DNA from: a virus
Reading direction: 5' to 3' (one strand)
Virus record (IMG/VR): IMGVR_UViG_3300034375_007865
Span: 1 to 25,340 of that record
Length of the DNA stretch: 25,340 nt
Made by a program: the position numbers and the translations under genes. Within the stretch, counting starts at the first letter, position 1. Each line of letters opens with the position of its first letter. The notes below the pieces were generated by a model. The model did no database searches. It saw only the letters and a list, made by a program, of their open reading frames with translations, and was not told the origin of the DNA. This document shows positions 2,618 through 23,230 of this stretch, piece by piece.

Positions 2618-4255
2618 ATGGAGAATCTAGTCGAGTCTGAGGTCTTTCCTTACGAGATCATCGAAGATGCTGGTGACGGTAGTCGTCTGCGTCTAAGGGG
2701 GATTTACCAGCTATCGGATACGAAAAATCGTAACCGACGAGTCTACCCTCGTGGTTTGTGGGAGAAGGTCTTAGCTGAGAATGGTGACTTTAGCCGTAGG
2801 CTTGGGTCACGTTTAGTTCTCGGAGAGCTTGGCCATCCTGCGGACGGTAAGACTCGACTTTCTAACGTCTCACACCTTATTACAAAGGTGTGGATGGATG
2901 AAGGTTATAAGCCTGAATGTGTCGTGTGTAAGGCCAACGGTGGTCCTCACACTCACGTAATGGCTGAAGAGGAGGCACTTAACACGCCGGAAGGTAAGAT
3001 TCTTCAAGAACTCTACCGTGCTGGTGTGCAACTAGGTGTCTCTTCAAGAGGTCAGGGAAGTGTTCGTGGCGGGAATGAAGAGCAATTAGTTTCCGATGAT
3101 TTTCGTCTAGAGACTTTTGATCATGTTCTTGACCCAAGCACTCCGGGGGCCTACCCCAAGGTGATTTCTGAAAGCGTTGTTAGTGCAGTAGAGCGGCTCG
3201 TTGAGCCAGCTTGTAGCGCAGCAGAGCTTCAGGGTTATCGTAAGATTTTAGCCGAGGTGCGGTCTGGGGAAAACCTAGACAATAAAGCGACCATTGATAG
3301 TATGATTGAAACTATCGACGTTCGTATTGCTTCTGGTGATAGTCCAAAGGTTTTCCCGGTATCAAGCTTGCCTGAAACTTCGACAAGCAATCCTTTGGTA
3401 TTAGTACCAGCAAGTGTTGTATCAGTAGCCGCGCCTAATAATGTAACAACAACCATTCCTCATCATTCTAACGATGAGGTTGCGGAGGATAAAAAGATGC
3501 AGGAACTCTCTCTTGAACATCCTGAGGTTCAAAACTTAGTTCGTCGGGAAGTCGAAAAGGTTCGGGAAGAGTTGGAAAGCCGTCTCGCTGAGGCGGCAGC
3601 CATAATTGACAATCTCAATGCCGAGAATTCAGAAGCAGCAGATAGGCTCGCTGCTTCGGACAAAGTCGGTGAAGAGCTTGTTTCTCAGCTTAAGAATGCA
3701 CGCTTCCAGCTGGAAGCGTTCAAGGCTGAGGAAGGCATTGAAATTCCAACTGGTCCCGAGATGTATGATGAAAACCACACGCTTGGTCAGGCTTTCGATG
3801 CTTCCAAAGAAGTTATTGAAGAGCTTCTACAGCGTCTTGAGTTTGCCAACGAGTCGGTTGAGCGTGCTGAGGCGGCTGAAGCATTGCTTGCCGAAACCAT
3901 CGAGCGCGTTCGTCGCCGTGGTACCATTGAGAAGATTGACAGCATTCTCGCGAATGAGTCTGAGGAGCTTTCCAAGCGTCTCCGTCCTATTCTCGCAGAG
4001 TGTCGCTCCGTCGAGGAAGTATCTCATCGCTACAATACCCTCAAGGGTCTTCTCAATGAGGAAGTTTTTGTTCCTCAGGCCTCGTACATCAACGAGGAGA
4101 ATGAATTTAAGTCGGATGGAAGTTTACCGACACACACAAACCAACTAAGTGAGCAATCGCTTGCTGGTGAAAAAGCTTTCGCAATTGCGGAAGAAGCCAA
4201 CACTTTAAATCAAGATCTCTCCCGACGCATTTTGCGCCGCACCCTTGGTGCATGA
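2618..4255 (+). CDS. Prohead protease-scaffold fusion (T4 gp21-gp22 type)
   Basis: 545 residues. The first 200 match T4-type prohead serine proteases: NRNRRVYPRGLW (residues 38-49), GELGHP with the expected catalytic His73, and GVSSRGQGSV with the expected nucleophile Ser142 or Ser143, then DDFRLETFDHVLDPSTPGAYP with acidic candidates. Between His and Ser is an insert with C101xxC104 and H111TH113 that could bind metal. After a Ser/Thr/Pro linker (about 230-285) comes a long charged coiled-coil (about 295-480) typical of core scaffold proteins, then a C-terminal tail. In T4 the protease and scaffold are separate genes, 21 and 22. Here they share one frame just before the capsid gene. The protease should mature the capsid protein and degrade the core by cutting after L/I-x-E. 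Family assignment is firm; residue roles come from family knowledge. Confidence 0.88.
   Translation: MENLVESEVFPYEIIEDAGDGSRLRLRGIYQLSDTKNRNRRVYPRGLWEKVLAENGDFSRRLGSRLVLGELGHPADGKTRLSNVSHLITKVWMDEGYKPECVVCKANGGPHTHVMAEEEALNTPEGKILQELYRAGVQLGVSSRGQGSVRGGNEEQLVSDDFRLETFDHVLDPSTPGAYPKVISESVVSAVERLVEPACSAAELQGYRKILAEVRSGENLDNKATIDSMIETIDVRIASGDSPKVFPVSSLPETSTSNPLVLVPASVVSVAAPNNVTTTIPHHSNDEVAEDKKMQELSLEHPEVQNLVRREVEKVREELESRLAEAAAIIDNLNAENSEAADRLAASDKVGEELVSQLKNARFQLEAFKAEEGIEIPTGPEMYDENHTLGQAFDASKEVIEELLQRLEFANESVERAEAAEALLAETIERVRRRGTIEKIDSILANESEELSKRLRPILAECRSVEEVSHRYNTLKGLLNEEVFVPQASYINEENEFKSDGSLPTHTNQLSEQSLAGEKAFAIAEEANTLNQDLSRRILRRTLGA
3497..4255 (+). CDS. Nested scaffold protein from an internal start
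   Basis: Inside the fusion gene, at its linker-coil boundary, a consensus GGAGG (3484-3488) lies 8 bases before an in-frame ATG (3497). Initiation there would give a 252-residue protein starting MQELSLEHPEVQ and holding only the coiled-coil scaffold part. Phage lambda does the same with C and Nu3, and fused protease-scaffold genes commonly do so to obtain a scaffold excess. The ribosome site is better than that of the full-length gene, whose upstream sequence is only weakly Shine-Dalgarno-like. The site is seen directly. That it is used is inference. Confidence 0.65.
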   Translation: MQELSLEHPEVQNLVRREVEKVREELESRLAEAAAIIDNLNAENSEAADRLAASDKVGEELVSQLKNARFQLEAFKAEEGIEIPTGPEMYDENHTLGQAFDASKEVIEELLQRLEFANESVERAEAAEALLAETIERVRRRGTIEKIDSILANESEELSKRLRPILAECRSVEEVSHRYNTLKGLLNEEVFVPQASYINEENEFKSDGSLPTHTNQLSEQSLAGEKAFAIAEEANTLNQDLSRRILRRTLGA

Positions 4256-4282
4256 GAGACATACTCTAAAAGGAGTTATTAA

Positions 4283-5821
4283 ATGAGCATTAATGCACTC
4301 GTGGAAGACATGAACTCGTCAGGAGTCCATGACAACTTCCTTAGCGTCGGGCGTCATCTCTCTGAGACTAAGTGGCGTGACCTTTGTGAAGATGTTTCGG
4401 CTCCAATCGAGAATGACGACACTCGTTATGGGTTGGCTGTCATGCTTGAGAATACCGAGAGATATATTGCAAACCTTGACGAAACGACACGGGCTGTCGC
4501 AGTTGGCGATTTTCAGAAGTATGCCATGCCCCTCGTTCGTGCAATCTACCCTGAGTTGATTGCCAACGAGATCGTTTCGGTCCAACCAATGCTTGGCCCC
4601 GTCAGCCTCGTGTTCTACATGGACATGGTCTACGGTTCCAACAAGGGAAGCGTAAGACGTGGCGATACCGCATTCTCGTCGGTTGCCCGTGGCGCAAACA
4701 ACCCAGACTATTCGTCACCTAGCATTGACTCAGAGCAGGTCGGCGTTGGTACTGGGGTTGCTGGTGGTGCTGGCACCCCAACCCTTTCGTACCTCCCAGT
4801 CGTCCCCGGCACCGTTCAGTTCACAGACGGTACTCAGGTCATCACTGATGACGGTAATGGTAACCTTGTTGGTGACATTTCCGGTGCCCAGACCATTAAT
4901 TATGAGAGTGGTCAGTGCGGTGGAGCTATTACCTTTGCTCAACCAGTTGCAGCTGGTGTAGCAGTAACGGCTAGCTACCAGTACAACACTGAGGCCAATT
5001 CCAACATTCCTCAGATGGATCTGGTCCTCAACCACTCACCAATTTCGGCCCGTCCCCGCAAGTTGCGTACGAACTGGTCGCTTGAGTCAGCATTCAACCT
5101 CCGCTCGCTCCACGGGCTTGAGGCTGAGGTCGAACTGACGGCAGCAGTTGCAGCCGACATTCGGTTCGAGGTTGACCGTGAGATCATCTATGATCTCCAG
5201 CGCATGGCTGGTGCCGGTTCCGTTTACTGGAACACTGATCCCGGTGGCGGTGCAAATACCAACTACTACAGCTACACCGAGCACAAGCTCTCGATTGTCG
5301 ATGCCTTCGTAACTGGATCGAACCTGATCCACAAGGCAACCGGTCGTGGACGTGCCAACTGGATCATCTGCGGTGAGAAGGTTGCTACGGTTGTTGAGAC
5401 CCTACCCGGTTTCGTTGCAAACCCCGGTATGCCAAATGGCCTTACCAAGGGTGCGTACCGCTGTGGTCGCCTCAATGGAATGTGGGACATCTACAAGGAT
5501 CCCTTCTATCAGGACGATTACTTCGTCATGGGTTACAAGGGAGCTAGCTTCTTAGAGGCTGGTTACGTGTATGCTCCTTACATTCCTCTCTACACCACCC
5601 CGACAATCGTCCTTGACGACTTCGTCGCCCGTAAGGGTCTGGCCACGCAGTACGGCAAGAAAGCTATCAATAGCCTCTTCTACGTCACCGGTCAGATTGG
5701 TAACTTGGCACAGCTTGCTGCCAAGGCTGGCAAGGCTACTTCTGCCTTCACCAACGACAACTTTGGTTCCGCAACAGATATTACTGGAATCACTGACGGT
5801 CGCGGAGTCTTTGGGGCATAG
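4283..5821 (+). CDS. Major capsid protein (T4 gp23 type)
   Basis: 512 residues with AAAAGGAG ahead of ATG. The segment DFQKYAMPLVRAIYPELIAN (about 77-96), then SVQPMLGP and FYMDMVYG, is the conserved N-terminal part of the mature T4-type capsid protein (HK97 fold). An L-D-E tripeptide at residues 65-67 sits just where T4 gp23 is cut by its protease after residue 65. The mature protein would then begin at Thr68. Residues about 172-235 are an inserted beta module (VVPGTVQFTDGTQ to ASYQYNTE) at roughly the place where gp23 carries its insertion domain. The C-terminal half has the typical YAPYIPLYTTPT segment. It follows the protease-scaffold gene directly and is closed by a strong terminator, consistent with very high expression. 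Confidence 0.92.
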   Translation: MSINALVEDMNSSGVHDNFLSVGRHLSETKWRDLCEDVSAPIENDDTRYGLAVMLENTERYIANLDETTRAVAVGDFQKYAMPLVRAIYPELIANEIVSVQPMLGPVSLVFYMDMVYGSNKGSVRRGDTAFSSVARGANNPDYSSPSIDSEQVGVGTGVAGGAGTPTLSYLPVVPGTVQFTDGTQVITDDGNGNLVGDISGAQTINYESGQCGGAITFAQPVAAGVAVTASYQYNTEANSNIPQMDLVLNHSPISARPRKLRTNWSLESAFNLRSLHGLEAEVELTAAVAADIRFEVDREIIYDLQRMAGAGSVYWNTDPGGGANTNYYSYTEHKLSIVDAFVTGSNLIHKATGRGRANWIICGEKVATVVETLPGFVANPGMPNGLTKGAYRCGRLNGMWDIYKDPFYQDDYFVMGYKGASFLEAGYVYAPYIPLYTTPTIVLDDFVARKGLATQYGKKAINSLFYVTGQIGNLAQLAAKAGKATSAFTNDNFGSATDITGITDGRGVFGA

Positions 5822-11836: not shown

Positions 11837-13489
11837 ATGAGTTATTGGGATGACATAAACGAAGGTTTTGGGGCCATTCGTTATAATTACTACAATGACC
11901 GTTATGCGTACGGTAAAAATTCGCTAAACTCTTCAAATAGAGTTAGTTCAAAGGAGACTGCTATGAATTTCAGAGCAAAACGACTCAAGGAAATTTACGA
12001 AATGAATAGGAAAACGTTTGGCGGCATCAAGGAAACAAAAACTTTTAAGGTCAACGAGAATGTCGAAGCGACTAGCACCATCACACTAGCTAGCGGTTAT
12101 ATCCGTAGCGGTGTTAAGGGTGTGGTTGCAGAAGTTTATGACAATTCGTACGTAATTGACTTCGGAGGTCGTGCAGGGAAGGTAGCGATTGCCAAGCAGG
12201 TTGCTGAGGAATCTTTTGTTGCTCGCCCCGTTACTGGAACCCGCGATATCCTTCGTAAGACAATTGAAGGCTCGTTAACTGTTGGCGACTCCATCAACAT
12301 TGGCGATAGAGTTGTTGATGCTGAAGGCAGGCAGTACGCAATTGAGCAGGCTGATGTGTTTGGTCGTCGCTTCAAGGCGCTGAGCGAGAATGGTGTAACC
12401 CGTGTTCTTGATAAGAGTGAAGTCAAAAAGATTGCGGAAGACGCACCTTTAGCTGGCGAAGAAATGCCTAGTGCGGCTGGTAAGATGGTCCGCATCGTCG
12501 GTATTGACCCTCAGTCCAATTCACTCCGTGCCCGTGGAATCCCATCCGGTTCACAGGAAAATGTAGTAGGTCAGGTTGGTGTAGTTGAATTTGCGTACTA
12601 CCCGACTGGTGTGACCGCCCCTATGTTCCGTGTCCTTCTACAAGGCTACGGTCGTCGTGATTTCACTGGTGCTGAACTAGCCCCAGCAGATGGCCCTCAG
12701 ATGGCTCAGGAGGATTATAATAGACGCTCTTCTCTAAGTGAAATAAAAAGATCTAAAAAGTCTTCGTTGCCGTTTCCCACTAAAGGCTTTTTAGATCTCA
12801 CTAGTGGTGAATTGGAGTGGGTGCCAGATGACGAGGTTAGTGGTAAAGACAATTTCCACGACGAGCCCAACAACTCTCCTTTAAAGCTACCCAAAGGATT
12901 TAAAAATCCTTCTAGTGGTGGTAGACGCTCTTCTCTAGGTGAAAGTGCAGCACATCATTCTGATAAAAATGTTAGACATGCTGCTGCAACGGACCACCGT
13001 ACTCACCCAGATGTTCTTCATCTATTAAGTCAAGATAATGACATGGATGTTAGGCGTGCTGTTGCAATGAATCCTAATACTAGGCCAGATACTCTTAGTA
13101 GACTGCGTCGAGATGCTGACAGGGGTGTTAGACGTTCTGCTGTAGCAGATGGGCCTCAGATGGCTCAGGAGGGTGAGAATAGCCTCCCTTTTCCAAGTAA
13201 GGTAAATGAGGCAATTGCGAAGACCCCGTTTGCCCAAAAGCGTAAGGTAACTCAGGGCAAGCACTGGTGGTGTCAAGGTGGCGACTGCGAGAACCGCATG
13301 CACAGCGGAGGTGATTTCTACTTCGTTGCCCTGTCCCCCTCGGCCACGGCCAACGTTTGTAGCACCGATTGTGCGAAGAAGCTGATGGGTACCGGCGGGC
13401 GGGTTCTAGGAGAATCTAGACTCCGCTTGGTTAAGACCCACACGGGCGAAAAAGGGCACACTGCAAAAGTCTATTCTATAAGGACTTAG
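11837..13489 (+). CDS. Modular protein with SH3-like parts, LRV-type repeats and Cys motif; probably frameshifted at its end
   Basis: 550 residues. A second start at ATG 11963 has a better ribosome site (AAGGAG, 11951-11956, 6 bases upstream), so the protein may begin MNFRAKRLKEIYEMNRKTFG. Residues about 80-120 (VKGVVAEVYDNSYVIDFGGR) and 230-285 look SH3/KOW-like. Residues 284-440 contain repeated cassettes: ADGPQMAQE twice, RRSSLSE/RRSSLGE, SLPFPTKG/SLPFPSKV. They also hold a run of LRV-like repeats with DKNVRHAAATD, DMDVRRAVAMNPNTRPDTL and DRGVRRSAVA, about 25 residues apart. The C terminus has WWCQGGDC and CSTDC, suggesting metal binding. RRSSL[SG]E resembles protease sites. The stop is probably premature; see the tail at 13471-13620. 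Confidence 0.65.
   Translation: MSYWDDINEGFGAIRYNYYNDRYAYGKNSLNSSNRVSSKETAMNFRAKRLKEIYEMNRKTFGGIKETKTFKVNENVEATSTITLASGYIRSGVKGVVAEVYDNSYVIDFGGRAGKVAIAKQVAEESFVARPVTGTRDILRKTIEGSLTVGDSINIGDRVVDAEGRQYAIEQADVFGRRFKALSENGVTRVLDKSEVKKIAEDAPLAGEEMPSAAGKMVRIVGIDPQSNSLRARGIPSGSQENVVGQVGVVEFAYYPTGVTAPMFRVLLQGYGRRDFTGAELAPADGPQMAQEDYNRRSSLSEIKRSKKSSLPFPTKGFLDLTSGELEWVPDDEVSGKDNFHDEPNNSPLKLPKGFKNPSSGGRRSSLGESAAHHSDKNVRHAAATDHRTHPDVLHLLSQDNDMDVRRAVAMNPNTRPDTLSRLRRDADRGVRRSAVADGPQMAQEGENSLPFPSKVNEAIAKTPFAQKRKVTQGKHWWCQGGDCENRMHSGGDFYFVALSPSATANVCSTDCAKKLMGTGGRVLGESRLRLVKTHTGEKGHTAKVYSIRT
12686..13171 (+). repeat. Direct repeats inside the modular gene
   Basis: A 27-bp repeat beginning GCAGATGG occurs at 12686-12712 and 13145-13171 (26 of 27 identical, encoding ADGPQMAQE). 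A 23-bp repeat beginning TAGACGCTCT occurs at 12721-12743 and 12922-12944 (22 of 23 identical, encoding RRSSL[SG]E). The near-identity at DNA level suggests recent duplication or recombination within the gene. Confidence 0.85.
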
Positions 13490-13633: not shown

Positions 13634-13993
13634 ATGCCTAAACAACTAGACACGGCTGATCAGTTCCGTAGGGCTGTTTCTAAGAAGAAGCAGCCTGTTG
13701 GCTTAGACGTTCAGTCGGCAATAAAAGAACTGAAACAAAAGAACCATGCTCAAATAGAATTTGAGTCTGCTCTTAGGTGGGGTTCTTTATCTATTGCTGC
13801 TTATACGTTGTCTAGTGCCGCTGCGGACAAAGAAAAACGTATTTCTTTGTATAGTGACGGTGAGGATTATGCAAATGAGGCGCGTGAGCATGCTGCTCAA
13901 GTTGGTGACGAAGGCAGACTTCTTGAATACCTGAACAAAGAAATTGACAGCGCACATCAAAAAGCTTTCTCGGAGATAGTCAAGTTTTCTTAG
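13634..13993 (+). CDS. Hypothetical helical protein
   Basis: 119 residues, starting MPKQLDTADQFRRAVSKKKQ. The rest is helical: DVQSAIKELKQKNHAQIEFE, then RWGSLSIAAYTLSSAAADK and DYANEAREHAAQVGDEGRLL. The alanine-rich helices with aromatic residues recall a helical repeat or bundle. No signal peptide; the short apolar segment around residues 50-65 is too weak for a membrane span. It lies 12 bases before the next gene. No family is recognised. Confidence 0.55.
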   Translation: MPKQLDTADQFRRAVSKKKQPVGLDVQSAIKELKQKNHAQIEFESALRWGSLSIAAYTLSSAAADKEKRISLYSDGEDYANEAREHAAQVGDEGRLLEYLNKEIDSAHQKAFSEIVKFS

Positions 13994-14005: not shown

Positions 14006-14692
14006 ATGGAAAAATTCAAAGAAATGGTTGAAGCTAAATTAAACGGAGAAAGCGCTAAAGACCTAGTTTCAGGTATTAAGATCGCAGAGACTAGAGTTGG
14101 AGATTTTTTTCGTGCAGCTAAAGCTGGCTATAAAGCTGGGCACGCTGCATATAAAAGCGCAAAAAAAGACTTAGACCGTTTAAGGGACGGCTATAAGCTC
14201 GCTAGAGACGCAGTTAGTTCTGGTGCTAGTGTTAGTAGCATGATCGATAAACACAAAGGTAAGAACTCCACTACTAGTTTTGGCAGCAAAGGTAGCGTTG
14301 AACGTCCTATAATGTTAAGACCTTCGGATCAAATTGCTGCGGATAAACTTTCGGATCATTATAAAAAATTCAATTTGACTCCAAACCATCCTACTAGTAG
14401 CGCAGACATAACAAACGTAAATCTTAGATATGCTCAAGTAAGAGGAGTTGAAAACGCAATTGCTGACGCAATGAGTGATTGGGATCGTGATGAAAAAGGA
14501 AGGAATACTGAAACTTTACCGAGAATGAGTAAAAGTTCAGACAGTGTTTCCCATAGTAGGATGATCCCCGGCATACATGCTGGTCAGATGGGGCTTAAGG
14601 GGGACTCGGTTGCTGCCGTAACCACTAACGGAAAAGAAAAATTCGTTGGTGTTCATGCCCTTAAAGGGCCTAAGAAAAATACAATTAGATAA
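14006..14692 (+). CDS. Predicted prohead cargo protein with N-terminal targeting-like helix
   Basis: 228 residues. The N terminus, MEKFKEMVEAKLNGES, closely resembles the general form of T4 capsid-targeting sequences (a short amphipathic helix beginning MK/ME, with Phe and Glu), although the final site is LNGE rather than a strict L-x-E. Residues about 25-75 form a basic, Ala/Tyr-rich helical region (FFRAAKAGYKAGHAAYKSAK), likely DNA-binding by charge. The rest is polar and ends in a small domain (HAGQMGLKGDSVAAVTTNGK, GVHALKGPKKN). The tyrosine/lysine repeats at seven-residue spacing are notable. A packaged internal DNA-associated protein is the inference. Confidence 0.6.
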   Translation: MEKFKEMVEAKLNGESAKDLVSGIKIAETRVGDFFRAAKAGYKAGHAAYKSAKKDLDRLRDGYKLARDAVSSGASVSSMIDKHKGKNSTTSFGSKGSVERPIMLRPSDQIAADKLSDHYKKFNLTPNHPTSSADITNVNLRYAQVRGVENAIADAMSDWDRDEKGRNTETLPRMSKSSDSVSHSRMIPGIHAGQMGLKGDSVAAVTTNGKEKFVGVHALKGPKKNTIR

Positions 14693-14704: not shown

Positions 14705-14974
14705 ATGGACGGTGTAAATCTTGATTTAGCTCAGAGCTTAGTAATTGCAATTGTCCCTGTACTAACGCCAATTGTAATTTCTTTATTAAAGAGGTTCGTG
14801 GAGCAAATCCCGACCCAGTTCCTTCCAATCCTCGCCCCTGTTATCGGTATGGTTATTACAGGAATTGCCGAGGGGTTTGGTATTGATAGTGCAGCCACAG
14901 GTGCTGTCCTTGGTAGTGCTGGCGTCGGTATTCGTGAAATAGTTAATCAAAACATAACGAAGACTAAAGTCTGA
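14705..14974 (+). CDS. Small membrane protein, holin-like
   Basis: 89 residues with AAAAGGAG before ATG. There are two clear membrane segments: LVIAIVPVLTPIVISLL (about 12-28) and FLPILAPVIGMVITGIA (about 38-54). A Gly/Ala-rich third segment follows (AATGAVLGSAGVGI), then REIVNQNITKTKV. Short size, 2-3 segments and a polar tail are usual for phage holins. No endolysin lies in the window, so a lysis role cannot be confirmed. It could also be a membrane component delivered with the internal proteins. It precedes a PAS protein and another small membrane protein. Confidence 0.5.
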   Translation: MDGVNLDLAQSLVIAIVPVLTPIVISLLKRFVEQIPTQFLPILAPVIGMVITGIAEGFGIDSAATGAVLGSAGVGIREIVNQNITKTKV

Positions 14975-14981
14975 TGTAATT

Positions 14982-15452
14982 ATGCTCGCCCGAGAAAAAT
15001 ACAGACGCCCTATAGGTAAGGATGATAAACTAGAGCGCGTTAAGTCCCTTGGTCGTAGGGTTAGGTCGGACTTCCGTCGTCTTATGGAGATGGAAGACTT
15101 TCTCGACAGTCTCGAAGTAATGTTTCATTCCGTCGATGAAGACGGTTTGATTCTATGGGCGAGTGAATATGAGCTTAATGTACTTGGTTACAAAAAAGAT
15201 CAATTTGTAGGTAAGCCGTTAGGCGATTTTATACTAGACAAAGAGGCCTTGAAGAAAGTCCGTGCTCCTGAGAACCAAAACGGATCTTCAAGGCCTCTTC
15301 TAGTTGATGTTAAATGTTATGACGGTTCACTTCGTAGGATGTACTTACAAGTAGACCTTAGACTCACGGATTCACCAGAAGATGGCCTTGTTAAACTTAA
15401 ACATTCCTACGAAACTGATGCTCGCAAATCAGTCTCGTTGGGCACAACCTGA
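14982..15452 (+). CDS. Stand-alone PAS domain protein
   Basis: 156 residues. A basic N-terminal helix (DKLERVKSLGRRVRSDFRRL) leads into a PAS fold at about residues 42-140: EVMFHSVDEDGLILWASEYE, then LNVLGYKKDQFVGKPLGDFI and LLVDVKCYDGSLRRMYLQVD. The segment with the D-G-x-I-x-W-x-S-x-x-E-L-x-x-L-G-Y pattern is the classical PAS core, with the GK-L and DG-RR strands in order. No kinase, HTH, GGDEF or other output domain is attached. PAS domains bind small ligands or cofactors and mediate protein contacts in signalling. A phage protein of this type between structural genes is unusual. It might sense a host metabolite or compete with a host PAS regulator. Confidence 0.75.
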   Translation: MLAREKYRRPIGKDDKLERVKSLGRRVRSDFRRLMEMEDFLDSLEVMFHSVDEDGLILWASEYELNVLGYKKDQFVGKPLGDFILDKEALKKVRAPENQNGSSRPLLVDVKCYDGSLRRMYLQVDLRLTDSPEDGLVKLKHSYETDARKSVSLGTT

Positions 15453-15480: not shown

Positions 15481-15705
15481 ATGGGAAGTGACGCACAGAC
15501 AAGGTGGGATGAGTACGAAAAATTAGTTCTTCAAGAACTAGAGCGGCACTCCGCTGAAGTTAAGGAGCTAAATGAGAAGTATTTTAATTTAGCTCAGGAG
15601 TTTGTACTCTTAAAAGAAAAATCAGGGTCTTTAACAAGTTTAATGGTAGCGGCTGCAACTCTCGCCGGGTTTATAGGTGCAGTTTTAAAGTCAGTGGTAT
15701 TTTGA
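15481..15705 (+). CDS. Small coiled-coil protein with C-terminal membrane anchor
   Basis: 74 residues. Residues 1-48 form a charged heptad helix (EYEKLVLQELERHSAEVKEL, NEKYFNLAQEFVLLKEK), followed by one membrane span near the C terminus (LMVAAATLAGFIGAVLKSVV). A coiled coil plus a C-terminal anchor, around 75 residues, is the layout of XhlA-type and related small phage lysis or membrane-associated proteins. There is no good ribosome site before ATG, so the start is the least certain part. It is near the holin-like gene and PAS gene. A lysis accessory role is possible but unproven. Confidence 0.55.
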   Translation: MGSDAQTRWDEYEKLVLQELERHSAEVKELNEKYFNLAQEFVLLKEKSGSLTSLMVAAATLAGFIGAVLKSVVF

Positions 15706-15712
15706 GGCAAAG

Positions 15713-16762
15713 ATGACGGGTTCTACTTCAGTAGGCGTAGGCTTGGTGTCTCCCTTAGGGATGTCTCCCCTAGCGAAAGAATACGCGGATAGGTTTGGTA
15801 CAAGGGCTGGAACCTTAGCGTTCCCTGACTTTGTGCGTGCGCGTAAGTTGTCAGCCGAAGATGTAGCTCAGTTGAGAGCACTCTTAAAGTCTCAGTACCA
15901 TATAGAACCAGTTGCTACTCGTGTAGAGTCAACCTTGTCAAATCTGGACTATTTCTTTGCTGACTTCGCTGTAAACTTCTTTACTAAAATTCTTACTAGG
16001 CCTCCTAGAATTAACGTAAAGAAGGGAAAGAACCCTAAAACTGACAAAGTTAGAAGACAAAAAGCGCGTAGTTCAACCAATCAATTTAAGGGTGGTGAGA
16101 TAAAACACCCTAGTGGTGCTACTACTAAGACTGGATTATCCGCTACACAGACTATTACTCCTAAGAAGCCACGTAAGCTTTTTACAAAGAAGGGTACTAA
16201 AATAATACGCGAAGGGTTAGGCTTCTCGCCAGACGCTGATGGTCGTGGTGGCGGTGTAGGTGGAGGTTCTCCGTTGTCGGCCAGCCCCGATTACAATATT
16301 GAGCCTGAGACCGTCTCCTATGAGTCTGACCCTAAGCGTGACTTAGAGGCAAGGGCGGCTAAGAAAGTCGCAAAGAGGATTAGGAAGGGAAACCCTCTTC
16401 CATATGAGACGGTTATTTCAAACGAGAACGGGGTTAAGGCTCAAACCAAGATGGGCTACGTTAGAGTCCCCGGAGGCCCCGTAAGCGTCAATGAGCAGGG
16501 TTGCGTGGCCTTCAAGTGTATTACCCCAGACTCTGTCGAAATAAGCGCTGGAGGCGTCTCTACGGTACACCAGCGTCCTGTTTTGGCACATGCAGTGAGG
16601 CACCGACTCTCTCCCTATGGTCGGACGTTCAATGACAGGTTGCCGAAGGTTCTGGAGTGGCTTTGGTATCGAAGCTCTCCCGGCCAGAGTCTTGTCCTCG
16701 ACCCTGCCAGCAGCAGTGCGTACGTCATCAACGAAGGTGGGTATAAGAGTGAAGCGTTCTGA
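15713..16762 (+). CDS. Hypothetical virion-region protein with basic linker
   Basis: 349 residues with TTTTGAGGCAAAG before ATG. Residues 1-110 are a helical N-terminal domain (MSPLAKEYADRFGTRAGTLA, then LSAEDVAQLRALLKSQYHIE). Residues 110-250 are very basic and low in complexity (NVKKGKNPKTDKVRRQKARS, PKKPRKLFTKKGTKI) with Gly-rich linkers. A C-terminal domain (TKMGYVRVPGGPVSVNEQGC to VINEGGYKSEAF) is mixed beta. The end overlaps the next gene by 14 bases. The basic region suggests nucleic-acid contact, so it might be an internal or packaged protein, but there is no L-x-E targeting peptide at its start. No family is recognised. Confidence 0.5.
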   Translation: MTGSTSVGVGLVSPLGMSPLAKEYADRFGTRAGTLAFPDFVRARKLSAEDVAQLRALLKSQYHIEPVATRVESTLSNLDYFFADFAVNFFTKILTRPPRINVKKGKNPKTDKVRRQKARSSTNQFKGGEIKHPSGATTKTGLSATQTITPKKPRKLFTKKGTKIIREGLGFSPDADGRGGGVGGGSPLSASPDYNIEPETVSYESDPKRDLEARAAKKVAKRIRKGNPLPYETVISNENGVKAQTKMGYVRVPGGPVSVNEQGCVAFKCITPDSVEISAGGVSTVHQRPVLAHAVRHRLSPYGRTFNDRLPKVLEWLWYRSSPGQSLVLDPASSSAYVINEGGYKSEAF

Positions 16763-18763: not shown

Positions 18764-21355
18764 ATGCCAGCATCTTATGTAAGCCCCGGCTTATACGTCA
18801 GAGAGATTGACGAGTCGCTATTCGTCCCCGCTCTTGCTGATACGCCTTTTGGGGTAGTTGGTTTTGCAACTTGGGGCCCTATTGCAGGCGACCCAGATGA
18901 TACTGTCACCGCACCTACTTTGGTGACCAGCGCTGGACAGCTTTCTAAAGCCTTTGGGCCTAACACGGGCGTTCCAGTTGATAGTTACAGTGATGGCACT
19001 GACGAGTACCCTACTCACCCTATGCTGTATGCCGCATCTAGGTATCTACGCTCAGGCCGTCGCTGTTATGTAGCACGTGTAGCGGACCTTGCTACGGCAG
19101 CCAAAGCTATCGGCTACCTCAAAGGGACACCTACTAACGTAGCACCACCACTCACTAATACATCTAACCCAATTAATGTCCCCAACCCCACTACAGCACA
19201 GGGGATTACTACTGGTACAGCAGGTACTGGCGGTTTCTTACCTCCAGACACTACTTTCCAGTTTGCTATCACATTTAACGATGGTGCTGGTGGTGAGACC
19301 ACTATCGGTACTACTGAGGTCTCAGAAACAACTTCATCTACTCCTACTGACGATACTCACAAGTTAACTTTTGAGTTCACTGGTACTTGGCTAACAAATA
19401 CTTCTACCGGCGCTGAATTGCCGTCTGCAAACATTTACATGCGTCAGGCTGGTGGAACTTATGGCTTGCTCGCTGCAAACCAAACCAAAGCCCAAATGGA
19501 GGCTATTCGTGACGTTACAACTTTACCGTTCGATACGTCTTCAAACGTTTACAAAGTCTGGGCTAAGTATAAAGGTACGCTTGGTAATCGTATAAAAGTA
19601 GGCGTAGCCCCCGGTGGCGACACGAGTGTTACTAAGCCAACTAAAAAATACACAGTTAGCTTACAATCTCCTGTAACTTCTTCCATAGTCAGTCAGGTAG
19701 AAATTTTTGACGGTGTTGCATCGAACCCATACGACAAAAATTCTGATGGTACTAGTAATGATGTACTTAAAAGAATTACTGTTAATAACAGTGACTTCAT
19801 TTATTTAGATTTAATAAGTGCTCCGACCAGTAACACAGCATTAAATTCTAGTAATACTCTCATTTCTGACCCTACAGAAGGTAGTGGAAACAATTTTACT
19901 GCCAGTGCAACGAACGGCATAGGGTTGTTTGAAGGTAACGCGCCTACGGACGGTTCTACTACAAAAAATGGTTACGTTCGTGTTGGAATCTCTTTTACAG
20001 GTGTTAATGGCGGCGAAACATTAGTAGCTACTAATGCAAATCCAATCCAAGTAACATCAAATTGGACTACTTCGGGCGCTTATGTATCTGGTAATGGGGA
20101 TATTACTGTACAAGTCGAAGCTGGTGCAGTCTCTGCTACTGATGTTAGCCATGTTAATATTTACTTAAGTAAAGAAATTGCTTCAACGGATACTGAAGCA
20201 ACAATAACTGACCTTCGTTTGACTAGGTCGATACCTGTTTCTCAATGGGGAGATACGAATGTCGCTAATACTTCTTGGGTACTAAGTAGATTACCGGGAC
20301 AGCAACTACCAGCCAACACTAACACTGTTACAGGTATTAGTCTTTCTGGTGGATTAGACGGACTTCCATCAACTAGTGCAACTACGGCTGAAAAAGATGC
20401 ACTTTATATTGGCAAAGTAAAGGACGCTGTCCAAGAAGCTAGTGGGTTACAGATCTTTAGAGACACTGAAACTACAGACATAAGTCTTTTAGCAGTGCCC
20501 GGTGTATCTACTGCTTCAGTTGTTACTACTTTAATTGATGTGGCTGAAAAAAGAGGTGATTGTGTTGCACTAGTAGATCCACCTTCTAAAGGAGGTCCAG
20601 ACGGTGCCGGTACTGGTGGTATTAAAAGCGCTGACGGTGTCATTAAGTGGCACAACGGTGTTTCAGGCCTAGTCGATGCGCCAACAACTTCCCTGAACTC
20701 TAGCTACGCCGCACTCTTTTGGCCATGGGTTCAGATCATGGATGGTCTAAATTCTCAAAAGCTTTACATCCCACCTTCAGGAATTGCTGCTGAGGTATTT
20801 GCTCAAAGTGATTACGCTAGCGAGCAATGGTTTGCACCGGCAGGTTTAAACCGTGGCACTGTAAAGAACATCCTTCAAGCTCAATTCCGTCCAACTTTAG
20901 GCGAGCGCGATGCAATGTACTCACAGGGCAATGCAATCAATCCAATTGCAACTTTCCGGGGTTCAGGCGTTGTCGTTTGGGGACAGCGTACTCTACAGCG
21001 TCTTCCAACAGCATTGGATAGAATTAATGTACGACGCTTACTTATTTTCTTGAGGAGGGTAATTGACAGAGCCGCTGTTGGTCTTGTCTTTGAACAAAAT
21101 GATTCGACCATGTGGCGTAAGTTTAATAACATCGTCAGCCCGATTCTTGACGGGGTAAAAGCTCGTCGTGGTATTGTTGATTACAGAGTCGTGATGGACG
21201 AAACAACTAACACGCCTGATATCATTGAGCAGAACCAAGCTGTTGGTGACATTTTTATCAAGCCCACCAAGACTGCCGAAATCATCATCTTGAATTTTAT
21301 TGTGACTTCGCAGACTAGTGATTTCACTGAGACGACAACGACCGGCTCTCTTTAA
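18764..21355 (+). CDS. Contractile tail sheath protein
   Basis: 863 residues with AAAGGAG before ATG. The N terminus (YVSPGLYVREIDESLF, then FGVVGFATWGPIAGDP) and the C-terminal half (RINVRRLLIFLRRVIDRAAV, then FEQNDSTMWRKFNNIVSPIL and DIFIKPTKTAEIIILNF) are classical tail sheath signatures. T4 gp18 has 659 residues. The extra length lies in inserted Thr/Ser/Gly-rich beta domains at about residues 163-265 and 403-498. These share the pattern F-x-x-x-I-[ST]-F-x-x-x-x-G-G-E-T and NIY-[ML] and look FN3-like. Such insertions should project from the sheath surface. The tube gene follows directly. Confidence 0.92.
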   Translation: MPASYVSPGLYVREIDESLFVPALADTPFGVVGFATWGPIAGDPDDTVTAPTLVTSAGQLSKAFGPNTGVPVDSYSDGTDEYPTHPMLYAASRYLRSGRRCYVARVADLATAAKAIGYLKGTPTNVAPPLTNTSNPINVPNPTTAQGITTGTAGTGGFLPPDTTFQFAITFNDGAGGETTIGTTEVSETTSSTPTDDTHKLTFEFTGTWLTNTSTGAELPSANIYMRQAGGTYGLLAANQTKAQMEAIRDVTTLPFDTSSNVYKVWAKYKGTLGNRIKVGVAPGGDTSVTKPTKKYTVSLQSPVTSSIVSQVEIFDGVASNPYDKNSDGTSNDVLKRITVNNSDFIYLDLISAPTSNTALNSSNTLISDPTEGSGNNFTASATNGIGLFEGNAPTDGSTTKNGYVRVGISFTGVNGGETLVATNANPIQVTSNWTTSGAYVSGNGDITVQVEAGAVSATDVSHVNIYLSKEIASTDTEATITDLRLTRSIPVSQWGDTNVANTSWVLSRLPGQQLPANTNTVTGISLSGGLDGLPSTSATTAEKDALYIGKVKDAVQEASGLQIFRDTETTDISLLAVPGVSTASVVTTLIDVAEKRGDCVALVDPPSKGGPDGAGTGGIKSADGVIKWHNGVSGLVDAPTTSLNSSYAALFWPWVQIMDGLNSQKLYIPPSGIAAEVFAQSDYASEQWFAPAGLNRGTVKNILQAQFRPTLGERDAMYSQGNAINPIATFRGSGVVVWGQRTLQRLPTALDRINVRRLLIFLRRVIDRAAVGLVFEQNDSTMWRKFNNIVSPILDGVKARRGIVDYRVVMDETTNTPDIIEQNQAVGDIFIKPTKTAEIIILNFIVTSQTSDFTETTTTGSL

Positions 21356-22056: not shown

Positions 22057-22875
22057 GTGGATAGAGAAATTTTCGGTTTAGGTTCTGAAGTTACGTTACC
22101 ATCTAAAGGGATACTTTACGATGGTCAGGTCATTGGCGGCAAAGTTCAAATCATGCCAATGACAACTCGTGAAGAGAAAATGATCGCGTCTGCCGGTACT
22201 AATGCTGGGATGTCGATTATTGACACATTAATTAATCGTTGCGTTGAAGGCGCGGGCACCATGAAAGCGGATGACTTTCTAGTAGGTGACCGCGCCTATT
22301 TAATTATGGCGATCCGCGCTGTATCACTTGGAGAAGATTACGAATTCGCTCTTCAGTGCGAAGGGTGTAACACCAAGTCCCGACACGAAGTTCAGATACC
22401 TGAAGATCTTTCAGTTATTTATTTAAAAGATGAGTTTGAAGAGCCTATTAAAGTAGAACTTCCGTACTCCAAGTGGGTCGTGAAACTAAAGCTGCTCAGA
22501 GGTAGTGATGAAAAAGACATCGCTCGTTTCTCTGAGAGGGCTTATCGAAACACTAATGCAAAGAAGCAAGGTGACCCAGTTTACACGTACCGCATTGCCA
22601 AACAGATCGTTTCGATTAACCCAAACCCAGAGGATGAAGAGGCAGAGATTGTTAACTCTGACCTTGAATCCATGAAGCAAATCTGTGAGTTGTATGAGAA
22701 GCTCCCTGCCAGGGATGGAGTGGCTATCCGAAACGCTCTTTCAGAGAATGATTGCGGTGTAGATACTGATATTGAGTACCGGTGCCCCAAGTGTGGATAC
22801 AGCGGAGTAATGATGCTGCCAATGCAGATTGAGTTTTTTCGTCCCGGCGGGAACCGAGGCGTCCGCTATTTATGA
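22057..22875 (+). CDS. T4 gp26-type baseplate hub/tail chaperone-like protein
   Basis: 272 residues from GTG with TAAGGAGAT upstream. The order VTLPSKGILYDG (about 12-23), MPMTTREEKMIASAG, INRCVEGAGTMKADDF, then DRAYLIMAIRAVSLGEDYEF and CEGC is the pattern of the T4 baseplate-type family that includes gp26. A second CPKCG pair near the C terminus makes a likely zinc-binding site with the first. The gene lies between tube and tape measure, where tail assembly chaperones usually lie, and it overlaps a frame that could be joined by frameshift. A hub role and a chaperone role are both possible. Family call from motif order, not from a search. Confidence 0.65.
   Translation: MDREIFGLGSEVTLPSKGILYDGQVIGGKVQIMPMTTREEKMIASAGTNAGMSIIDTLINRCVEGAGTMKADDFLVGDRAYLIMAIRAVSLGEDYEFALQCEGCNTKSRHEVQIPEDLSVIYLKDEFEEPIKVELPYSKWVVKLKLLRGSDEKDIARFSERAYRNTNAKKQGDPVYTYRIAKQIVSINPNPEDEEAEIVNSDLESMKQICELYEKLPARDGVAIRNALSENDCGVDTDIEYRCPKCGYSGVMMLPMQIEFFRPGGNRGVRYL
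22834..22839 (+). promoter_or_regulatory. T6 run, candidate -2 frameshift site
   Basis: Near the end of the upstream gene the mRNA reads GAG TTT TTT CGT (T6 at 22834-22839). Slipping back two bases would enter the frame of the next gene and read TTC GTC CCG, giving a fusion through the chaperone-like extension. Phage Mu and relatives use a -2 shift at the equivalent place. Whether it operates here is inference; a separate TTG start downstream (22889) is the alternative. Confidence 0.35.
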
Positions 22876-22888
22876 GGAAGAATTCGCC

Positions 22889-23230
22889 TTGGTCTACAAT
22901 GTCCCCGGAATTACTTATGGAGATGTTGAAGGAATGCCACCTTGGGAAAGGAAGGCATTTTTAGAGTTATTATTAAAGCAAAGAAATATTGAAAAAGAGC
23001 AACATGAAAAGGCAAAAGGTAATGTTTCAGGAAAGCCTGCTGATGGCTTTACGTCTGGTAGGAATGACTTAATGAGGCCCTCTATGAAGGGTGAGGCGTA
23101 TGGAGCAAAAGATCCTAGAGACCGCATTAGGGGTGGGCAACCTGCCAAATTTGTGCCGGGCCCCGGAACAGGCCCGCCAAAAAGGACTTCTACAGTGAAA
23201 ACAGAAAAGGGGCCGTCTCAGGCCTCTTAA
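22889..23230 (+). CDS. Small tail chaperone-extension-like protein
   Basis: A 113-residue product from TTG with GAGGAAG (22874-22880) 8 bases upstream. A longer reading from TTG 22829 overlaps the previous gene by 47 bases and has no ribosome site. The N-terminal part (GITYGDVEGMPPWERKAFLE, then LLLKQRNIEKEQHEKAKG) is typical of the short helical T-type extension of tail assembly chaperones, which binds the tape measure protein. The remainder is basic, Gly/Pro/Lys-rich and probably disordered (SGKPADGFTSGRND, KFVPGPGTGPPKRTS). It lies directly before the tape measure gene. Expression may be independent or by frameshift from the preceding gene. Confidence 0.6.
   Translation: MVYNVPGITYGDVEGMPPWERKAFLELLLKQRNIEKEQHEKAKGNVSGKPADGFTSGRNDLMRPSMKGEAYGAKDPRDRIRGGQPAKFVPGPGTGPPKRTSTVKTEKGPSQAS

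Follow-up and report, generated by a model that had tools for sequence, protein, structure and literature searches.

A stand-alone PAS protein, apparently of bacterial sensor-protein origin, beside a putative holin gene in a T4-type phage

The window analyzed here, a 25-kb (25,340-nt) fragment of an uncultured T4-type myovirus taken from a virus record, encodes at 14982-15452 a stand-alone PAS protein situated between genes for two small membrane proteins. Sequence comparison indicates that this protein originated in one subfamily of bacterial PAS domains found in multidomain sensor proteins, and that its core is under strong purifying selection in both phage copies identified but the central fifth strand, the classical signal exit, seems to have been lost or degraded in them. 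The PAS gene also contains an RNA hairpin which is real and is kept in a related phage; all three findings are new here. The mechanism that best fits these results, which we propose tentatively and with rather less than even confidence, is that the PAS protein functions as a partner-binding module of the lysis cassette. The features concerned are as follows.

14982-15452, plus strand: stand-alone PAS protein, 156 aa, with an N-terminal helix (residues 13-43), a PAS core (residues ~44-124) and a variable tail (residues 132-156)
15090..15374, plus strand: codons of residues 37-131, the stretch which aligns with the bacterial subfamily and spans strands A and B, the helices and strands G and H
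15375..15449, plus strand: codons of residues 132-156, where the fifth strand and DIT motif would lie; the sequence is degenerate and changes quickly
15241-15299, plus strand: RNA hairpin inside the PAS gene, with perfect 15-nt arms (15241-15255 and 15285-15299) and an inner stem, TCCGT/ACGGA
14705..14974, plus strand: holin-like protein, 89 aa, assigned from PHROG holin families and hydropathy
15481..15705, plus strand: 74-aa protein with a charged N-terminal part, a coiled-coil-like part and a C-terminal hydrophobic segment (residues 51-69, tail anchor)
15713..16762, plus strand: 349-aa basic protein, function not assigned, next in the block after the 74-aa gene

Assignment of the 14982 product as a PAS protein is based on several lines of evidence. 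It scores 23.9 bits against the Pfam PAS family PF00989, for which the gathering cut-off is 22.6, and matches PAS_9 with an E value of 1.6e-5, while the corresponding protein of the relative clears the cut-offs of three Pfam PAS families (PF13426, PF00989 and PF08448). In a tblastn search against plasmids the best match, at E 9e-10 and 32% identity, was to a multi-sensor hybrid histidine kinase of the cyanobacterium Chondrocystis. Since Pfam cut-offs are passed by both copies and tblastn leads independently to bacterial PAS proteins, the resemblance is more than chance; no match to the protein was detected in PHROGs. An AlphaFold2 model built from a 67-row alignment with 65 bacterial relatives contains the PAS core fold (strands A and B, helices C-F, strands G and H), with pLDDT values of ~80-97, mostly >90, over residues 41-120; a model built from two sequences reached a pLDDT of 54 and was discarded. 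The best Foldseek matches of the model are PAS domains (3bwl, E 2.3e-5), and VIA-align matched it to KinA PAS-A with a Z score of 11.6 and an rmsd of 2.0 Å over 82 residues. Thus, the PAS core recognized in an earlier sequence-only reading of this DNA is borne out by family, tblastn and structural matches that agree with one another, and the non-PAS fold which that reading had named as counting against it did not arise. It had also described the core as lacking an output domain, and indeed the 156-aa ORF holds PAS only, being ended by a stop codon with no second domain (kinase, cyclase or HTH) matched and no DNA-binding HTH family matched by the protein. Hydropathy analysis revealed no membrane segment, suggesting that the PAS protein is cytoplasmic.

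A scan of 84,980 species genomes yielded at least 80 bacterial PAS domains of one subfamily with similarity to the phage protein, the taxa among the matches listed including Bacteroidota, Cyanobacteriota, Pseudomonadota, Acidobacteriota, Chloroflexota and others. Among the 80 matches listed, the reading frame runs on for a median of 571 aa from the PAS start and two consist of a complete small PAS protein standing alone (143 and 180 aa), so that single-domain use has cellular precedent. The subfamily, whose consensus is DFxENAxVxLHWVxxDGxILWANQAELDLLGYTxEEYIG...HTRCFTxDVT, includes Chondrocystis NIES4102_43620 and proteins of Parapedobacter, Nostoc, Mesorhizobium and others. Its profile matches both phage copies at 64-66 bits, a score that is partly circular, the bacterial set having been gathered by similarity to the phage protein, whereas the plasmid tblastn result is free of this circularity. 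With respect to the window copy (64 bits), the core is shared with no gaps over 93 profile positions. Residues D39, F40, H49, V51, G55, A60, E64, L65, G69, Y70, G77, F83, D86 and G115 are kept in both phages, H49, E64, L65, G69 and Y70 being invariant across the 67 sequences, while N61S, A63Y, H84I, L97E and S124V are altered in both phages relative to the bacterial subfamily. Identity between the phage PAS and any sampled bacterial copy is ~20-31%, and in the PAS tree the two phage proteins sit together on a very long branch, apart from every bacterial row. This placement does not allow a donor or host to be named, and for the same reason host assignment from the tree was ruled out.

Similarity to the subfamily does not extend to the end of the domain. 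The profile matches cover only positions 1-93/94 of 114 in the phage copies, stopping before the last strand, whereas a stand-alone Colwellia protein matches positions 3-111. Last-strand residues are mostly changed in both phages (bacterial T-R-C-F-T), the aspartate being kept in the window copy only, as D146. The tail, residues 132-156, is 32% identical between the two phages with a dN/dS of 0.33, and AlphaFold2 pLDDT falls to <50 over residues 134-155. A weak, gapless match is present in the window copy only, in which DGLVKLKHSYETDA aligns with DGKFVHTRCFTKDI, and the model could have missed a strand. Combined, the alignments and model suggest that the central fifth strand (TRCFTxDVT) has been lost or degraded in both phage copies, in which it is not recognizable. 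If so, the classical signal exit would be gone, and these proteins would provide a natural test of PAS domain function without the signal-exit strand.

These changes bear on the suggestion, made from sequence alone, that the protein senses a ligand. A true ligand or redox sensor gating lysis, in which a small molecule or cofactor bound in the pocket would cause the PAS protein to switch a membrane partner by a VqmA-like logic, would be consistent with retention of the fold and core, including H49, E64, G69 and Y70, with the adjoining holin-like gene and with the precedent of a phage PAS receptor that launches lysis (PMC8284805). However, both phages have changes at N61, H84, R141 and C142 of the subfamily, the fifth strand is degenerate and no output domain is present, VqmA being a transcription factor, which the phage PAS here is not. 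The sensing proposal is thus weakened, with N61, H84, R141/C142 and other last-strand positions changed and H49 kept, and we consider it unlikely.

Loss of output and of the signal-exit strand is also the configuration of a dominant-negative protein, as would be expected of a host-directed decoy, a free PAS that would pair with PAS domains in a sensor kinase or regulator of the host, from the same subfamily, and shut down its signalling during infection. PAS domains often dimerise via an N-terminal helix, a common route for which such a helix is predicted here, and the closest relatives of the phage protein are PAS domains from sensor proteins, hybrid ones included. Two observations argue against a decoy: the gene belongs to a late set of virion and lysis genes, by which time most host takeover would be over, and the ~20-31% identity and very long branch make mimicry of a particular kinase not apparent. 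This explanation is likewise judged improbable.

The context of the PAS gene is a head, neck and tail block, which encloses the trio of genes at 14705, 14982 and 15481 between neck and sheath genes.

2618: prohead protease
4283: Gp23 major capsid protein, head gene of the block
between the capsid gene and the trio: neck genes
upstream of 14006-14692: 119-aa gene
14006-14692: 228-aa gene, directly upstream of the holin-like gene
17437: gp15-like sheath stabiliser
18764: sheath
21381: tube-like protein
22057: baseplate protein

Capsid, stabiliser, sheath and baseplate genes surrounding the PAS gene agree with the earlier placement in a virion gene block. The nearest named phages are Listeria LIS04 and Bacillus SP-15, with capsid and sheath identity of only 37-40%. 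At 863 aa, the window's tail sheath (18764-21355) greatly exceeds the 505-aa sheath of LIS04, and its tblastn matches in SP-15, LIS04 and the other listed phages start only at approximately residue 495-560, Rhizobium phage RHph_I1_18 being the exception. A 550-aa protein encoded at 11837-13489 carries leucine-rich-repeat-variant-like repeats at residues ~381-433, under Pfam cut-offs. Matches to the T4 late promoter, TATAAATA, across the window were not above chance, and a search with a defence-system library gave no convincing match.

A location flanked by neck and sheath genes of like orientation, and maintenance of the gene by selection, would also be expected of a virion or assembly protein, in which the PAS fold would have been redeployed for a structural or chaperone task in the neck or tail. 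Against this, tblastn gave no PAS counterpart in the distant phages SP-15 and LIS04, which have capsid and sheath in common with the window, the gene is flanked by two membrane-protein genes, and its weak ribosome site suggests low expression. A virion role therefore appears quite unlikely.

With respect to the flanking genes, hydropathy reveals two hydrophobic segments in the 14705 product (residues 10-28 and 42-60) and one C-terminal segment in the 15481 product, as expected from the earlier description of two small membrane proteins. The 14705 product matches PHROG holin families at E 8.5e-9 (phrog_1129) and 6.9e-5 and Pfam Hol118 at E 0.0039, the latter under the cut-off; being small, with two membrane segments and a family match, it is classified as a putative holin. 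The 15481 product, which is 91% identical to its counterpart in the relative, gave no significant family match in Pfam, PHROG and further family searches, and no XhlA model matched it in Pfam at E values up to 1. No endolysin was found adjoining the trio. The cassette is called lytic on the basis of its one holin-like gene, PHROG-matched but under the Pfam cut-off.

The PAS protein was detected in one other fragment, IMGVR_UViG_3300000117_000059 (IMG/VR), at 77% identity; both PAS-bearing genomes are fragments, of 25 and 43 kb. IMG/VR scans using the PAS protein, mixed alignments or the bacterial subfamily alone revealed no further relative, scans with the holin and sheath revealed no further genome holding the PAS region, and among GenBank phages (50,697 records), queried with the phage PAS or a bacterial subfamily member, nothing better than E 0.9 was obtained. 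The relative is largely colinear with the window at ~75-80% DNA identity, and the order holin, PAS, 74-aa and 349-aa gene is identical in the two, as are the gaps of 7, 28 and 7 nt. Conservation of the neighbouring trio, proposed earlier as a check, thus held with equal gaps in the only relative carrying the locus, but one genome with a colinear block adds little, and the trio is not shown to be a unit. Over PAS residues 37-131 dN/dS is ~0.06 (0.063), with synonymous change near saturation, and the holin-like gene gives 0.11, indicating that both genes are maintained. A passenger gene with no lysis role, kept for some other cytoplasmic function, would be in keeping with gene traffic at this spot, as the window's own 228-aa gene (14006-14692), which has no family match, is missing at the matching place in the relative. 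The tight 7/28/7-nt packing is nevertheless kept in the relative and purifying selection is strong, and we regard a passenger as rather unlikely.

Other features were observed in comparing the two phages. A 118-nt stretch (4206-4323), from the end of the prohead protease gene to the start of the major capsid gene, is identical in both despite near-saturated synonymous sites elsewhere and is possibly a regulatory element. A second identical stretch, of 71 nt (22829-22899), lies at the overlap between a 133-aa ORF and the end of the baseplate gene, and dual coding may explain it. On the minus strand of the relative, an LCAT-family alpha/beta hydrolase (L010:14620-15771; Pfam 1.7e-14) lies outside the part matching the window, and a 754-aa tail-region protein (L009:5217-7478) with an N-terminal SLT transglycosylase domain is a candidate wall-degrading tail protein.

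The hairpin within the PAS gene, at 15241-15299, has a predicted energy of -31.3 kcal/mol (z -5.4). Measured against synonymous-codon permutations, the PAS gene has the strongest local structure among the 30 window genes, with a z score of -5.3, the next being -3.3, and arms of at least 12 nt arose in 0 of 2000 permutations. The PAS gene of the relative is structured at the matching place (z -2.5 to -3.4), two arm positions differing without compensation. Synonymous codons are kept at 19 of 24 positions across codons 87-111 versus 38 of 89 elsewhere (Fisher p 0.0014), although a best-window scan anywhere in the gene reached this in 168 of 2000 cases, so that codon conservation alone is not decisive. 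No Rfam family was found for the hairpin, and three other viral contigs match the stem pattern, approximately the number expected by chance on a rough estimate, so it was rejected as a widespread element. An ordinary terminator was also rejected, as the 15-bp stem encloses a 29-nt loop, is not followed by a T-run and is absent from the list of terminator-like sites. Programmed bypass or frameshifting was rejected in turn, since the hairpin region shows no insertion when the protein is aligned with bacterial PAS domains and, in both phages, an in-frame stop of its own lies upstream of the next ORF. Translation control, pausing or mRNA processing are possible roles. A second, fairly strong RNA structure (z -3.3) occurs at 13648-13720, at the start of the 119-aa gene, and is weaker in the relative (-20 versus -31 kcal/mol).

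The holin-like gene has a strong Shine-Dalgarno sequence (AAAAGGAGAATATT-ATG), whereas the PAS start lies 7 nt past the holin stop and has no clear Shine-Dalgarno; this arrangement makes coupled, lower PAS expression likely. According to the lysis-cassette proposal, a lineage of T4-type phages would long ago have acquired a cytoplasmic PAS-fold binding module from a multidomain sensor protein of bacteria and fixed it in its lysis cassette. Of the readings considered, this one best suits a PAS core that is cytoplasmic, is probably made together with a holin and a tail-anchored coiled-coil protein, and has neither an output domain nor a recognizable signal-exit strand. The protein would be made by re-initiation after the holin and, through binding the holin or the 74-aa coiled-coil protein, or self-pairing through its N-terminal helix, may set when or how the membrane opens, acting as an adaptor or antiholin-like partner rather than as a complete sensor leading from ligand to output. 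The hairpin within the gene may keep the amount of PAS under that of holin. Neighbouring genes in a long late operon do not necessarily share a function, as nearly the whole block is colinear. A more elaborate version, a holin-coupled switch in which a membrane partner contributes the strand or helix that completes a PAS domain lacking its own central strand, folding of the PAS protein reports the state of the holin and the hairpin sets the holin-to-PAS ratio, is considered very unlikely.

Comparison with known systems places these features in context. XhlA/XhlB-type cassettes combine a holin with a short coiled-coil protein having a C-terminal membrane anchor, and the 14705/15481 pair resembles them in layout only, differing in that 15481 lacks a known-family match and no nearby endolysin was found here; to our knowledge, no PAS protein occurs in such cassettes. 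The small bacterial proteins of Colwellia (L048, 143 aa) and Bacteroidetes (L086, 180 aa) are likewise single-domain PAS with helical ends and no output domain but, unlike the phage protein, keep the fifth strand and, as far as seen, do not lie beside phage genes. Relative to the subfamily as a whole, the phage PAS differs in standing alone and in the loss or change of H84, N61 and the last strand with its R-C and D-x-T. The relevant fold matches in a viral structure library were other PAS proteins, among them small PAS-annotated proteins of uncultured Caudovirales phages (BFVD A0A6J5KZZ3, A0A6J5QVN9 and A0A6J5NY05; 169-205 aa, 14-16% identity over the alignment), so that the occurrence of stand-alone PAS proteins in phages is not in itself new. 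The nearest functional precedent, sharing a phage-encoded PAS fold and a link to lysis, is VqmA of vibriophage VP882, a PAS-HTH receptor which binds DPO and activates transcription of qtip, whose product launches lysis (PMC8284805). VqmA has an HTH output domain, the 14982 product none. Should the holin prove to be a target of the PAS protein, the phage would time lysis with a signalling fold borrowed from a host, at the protein level, unlike the transcriptional VqmA of VP882.
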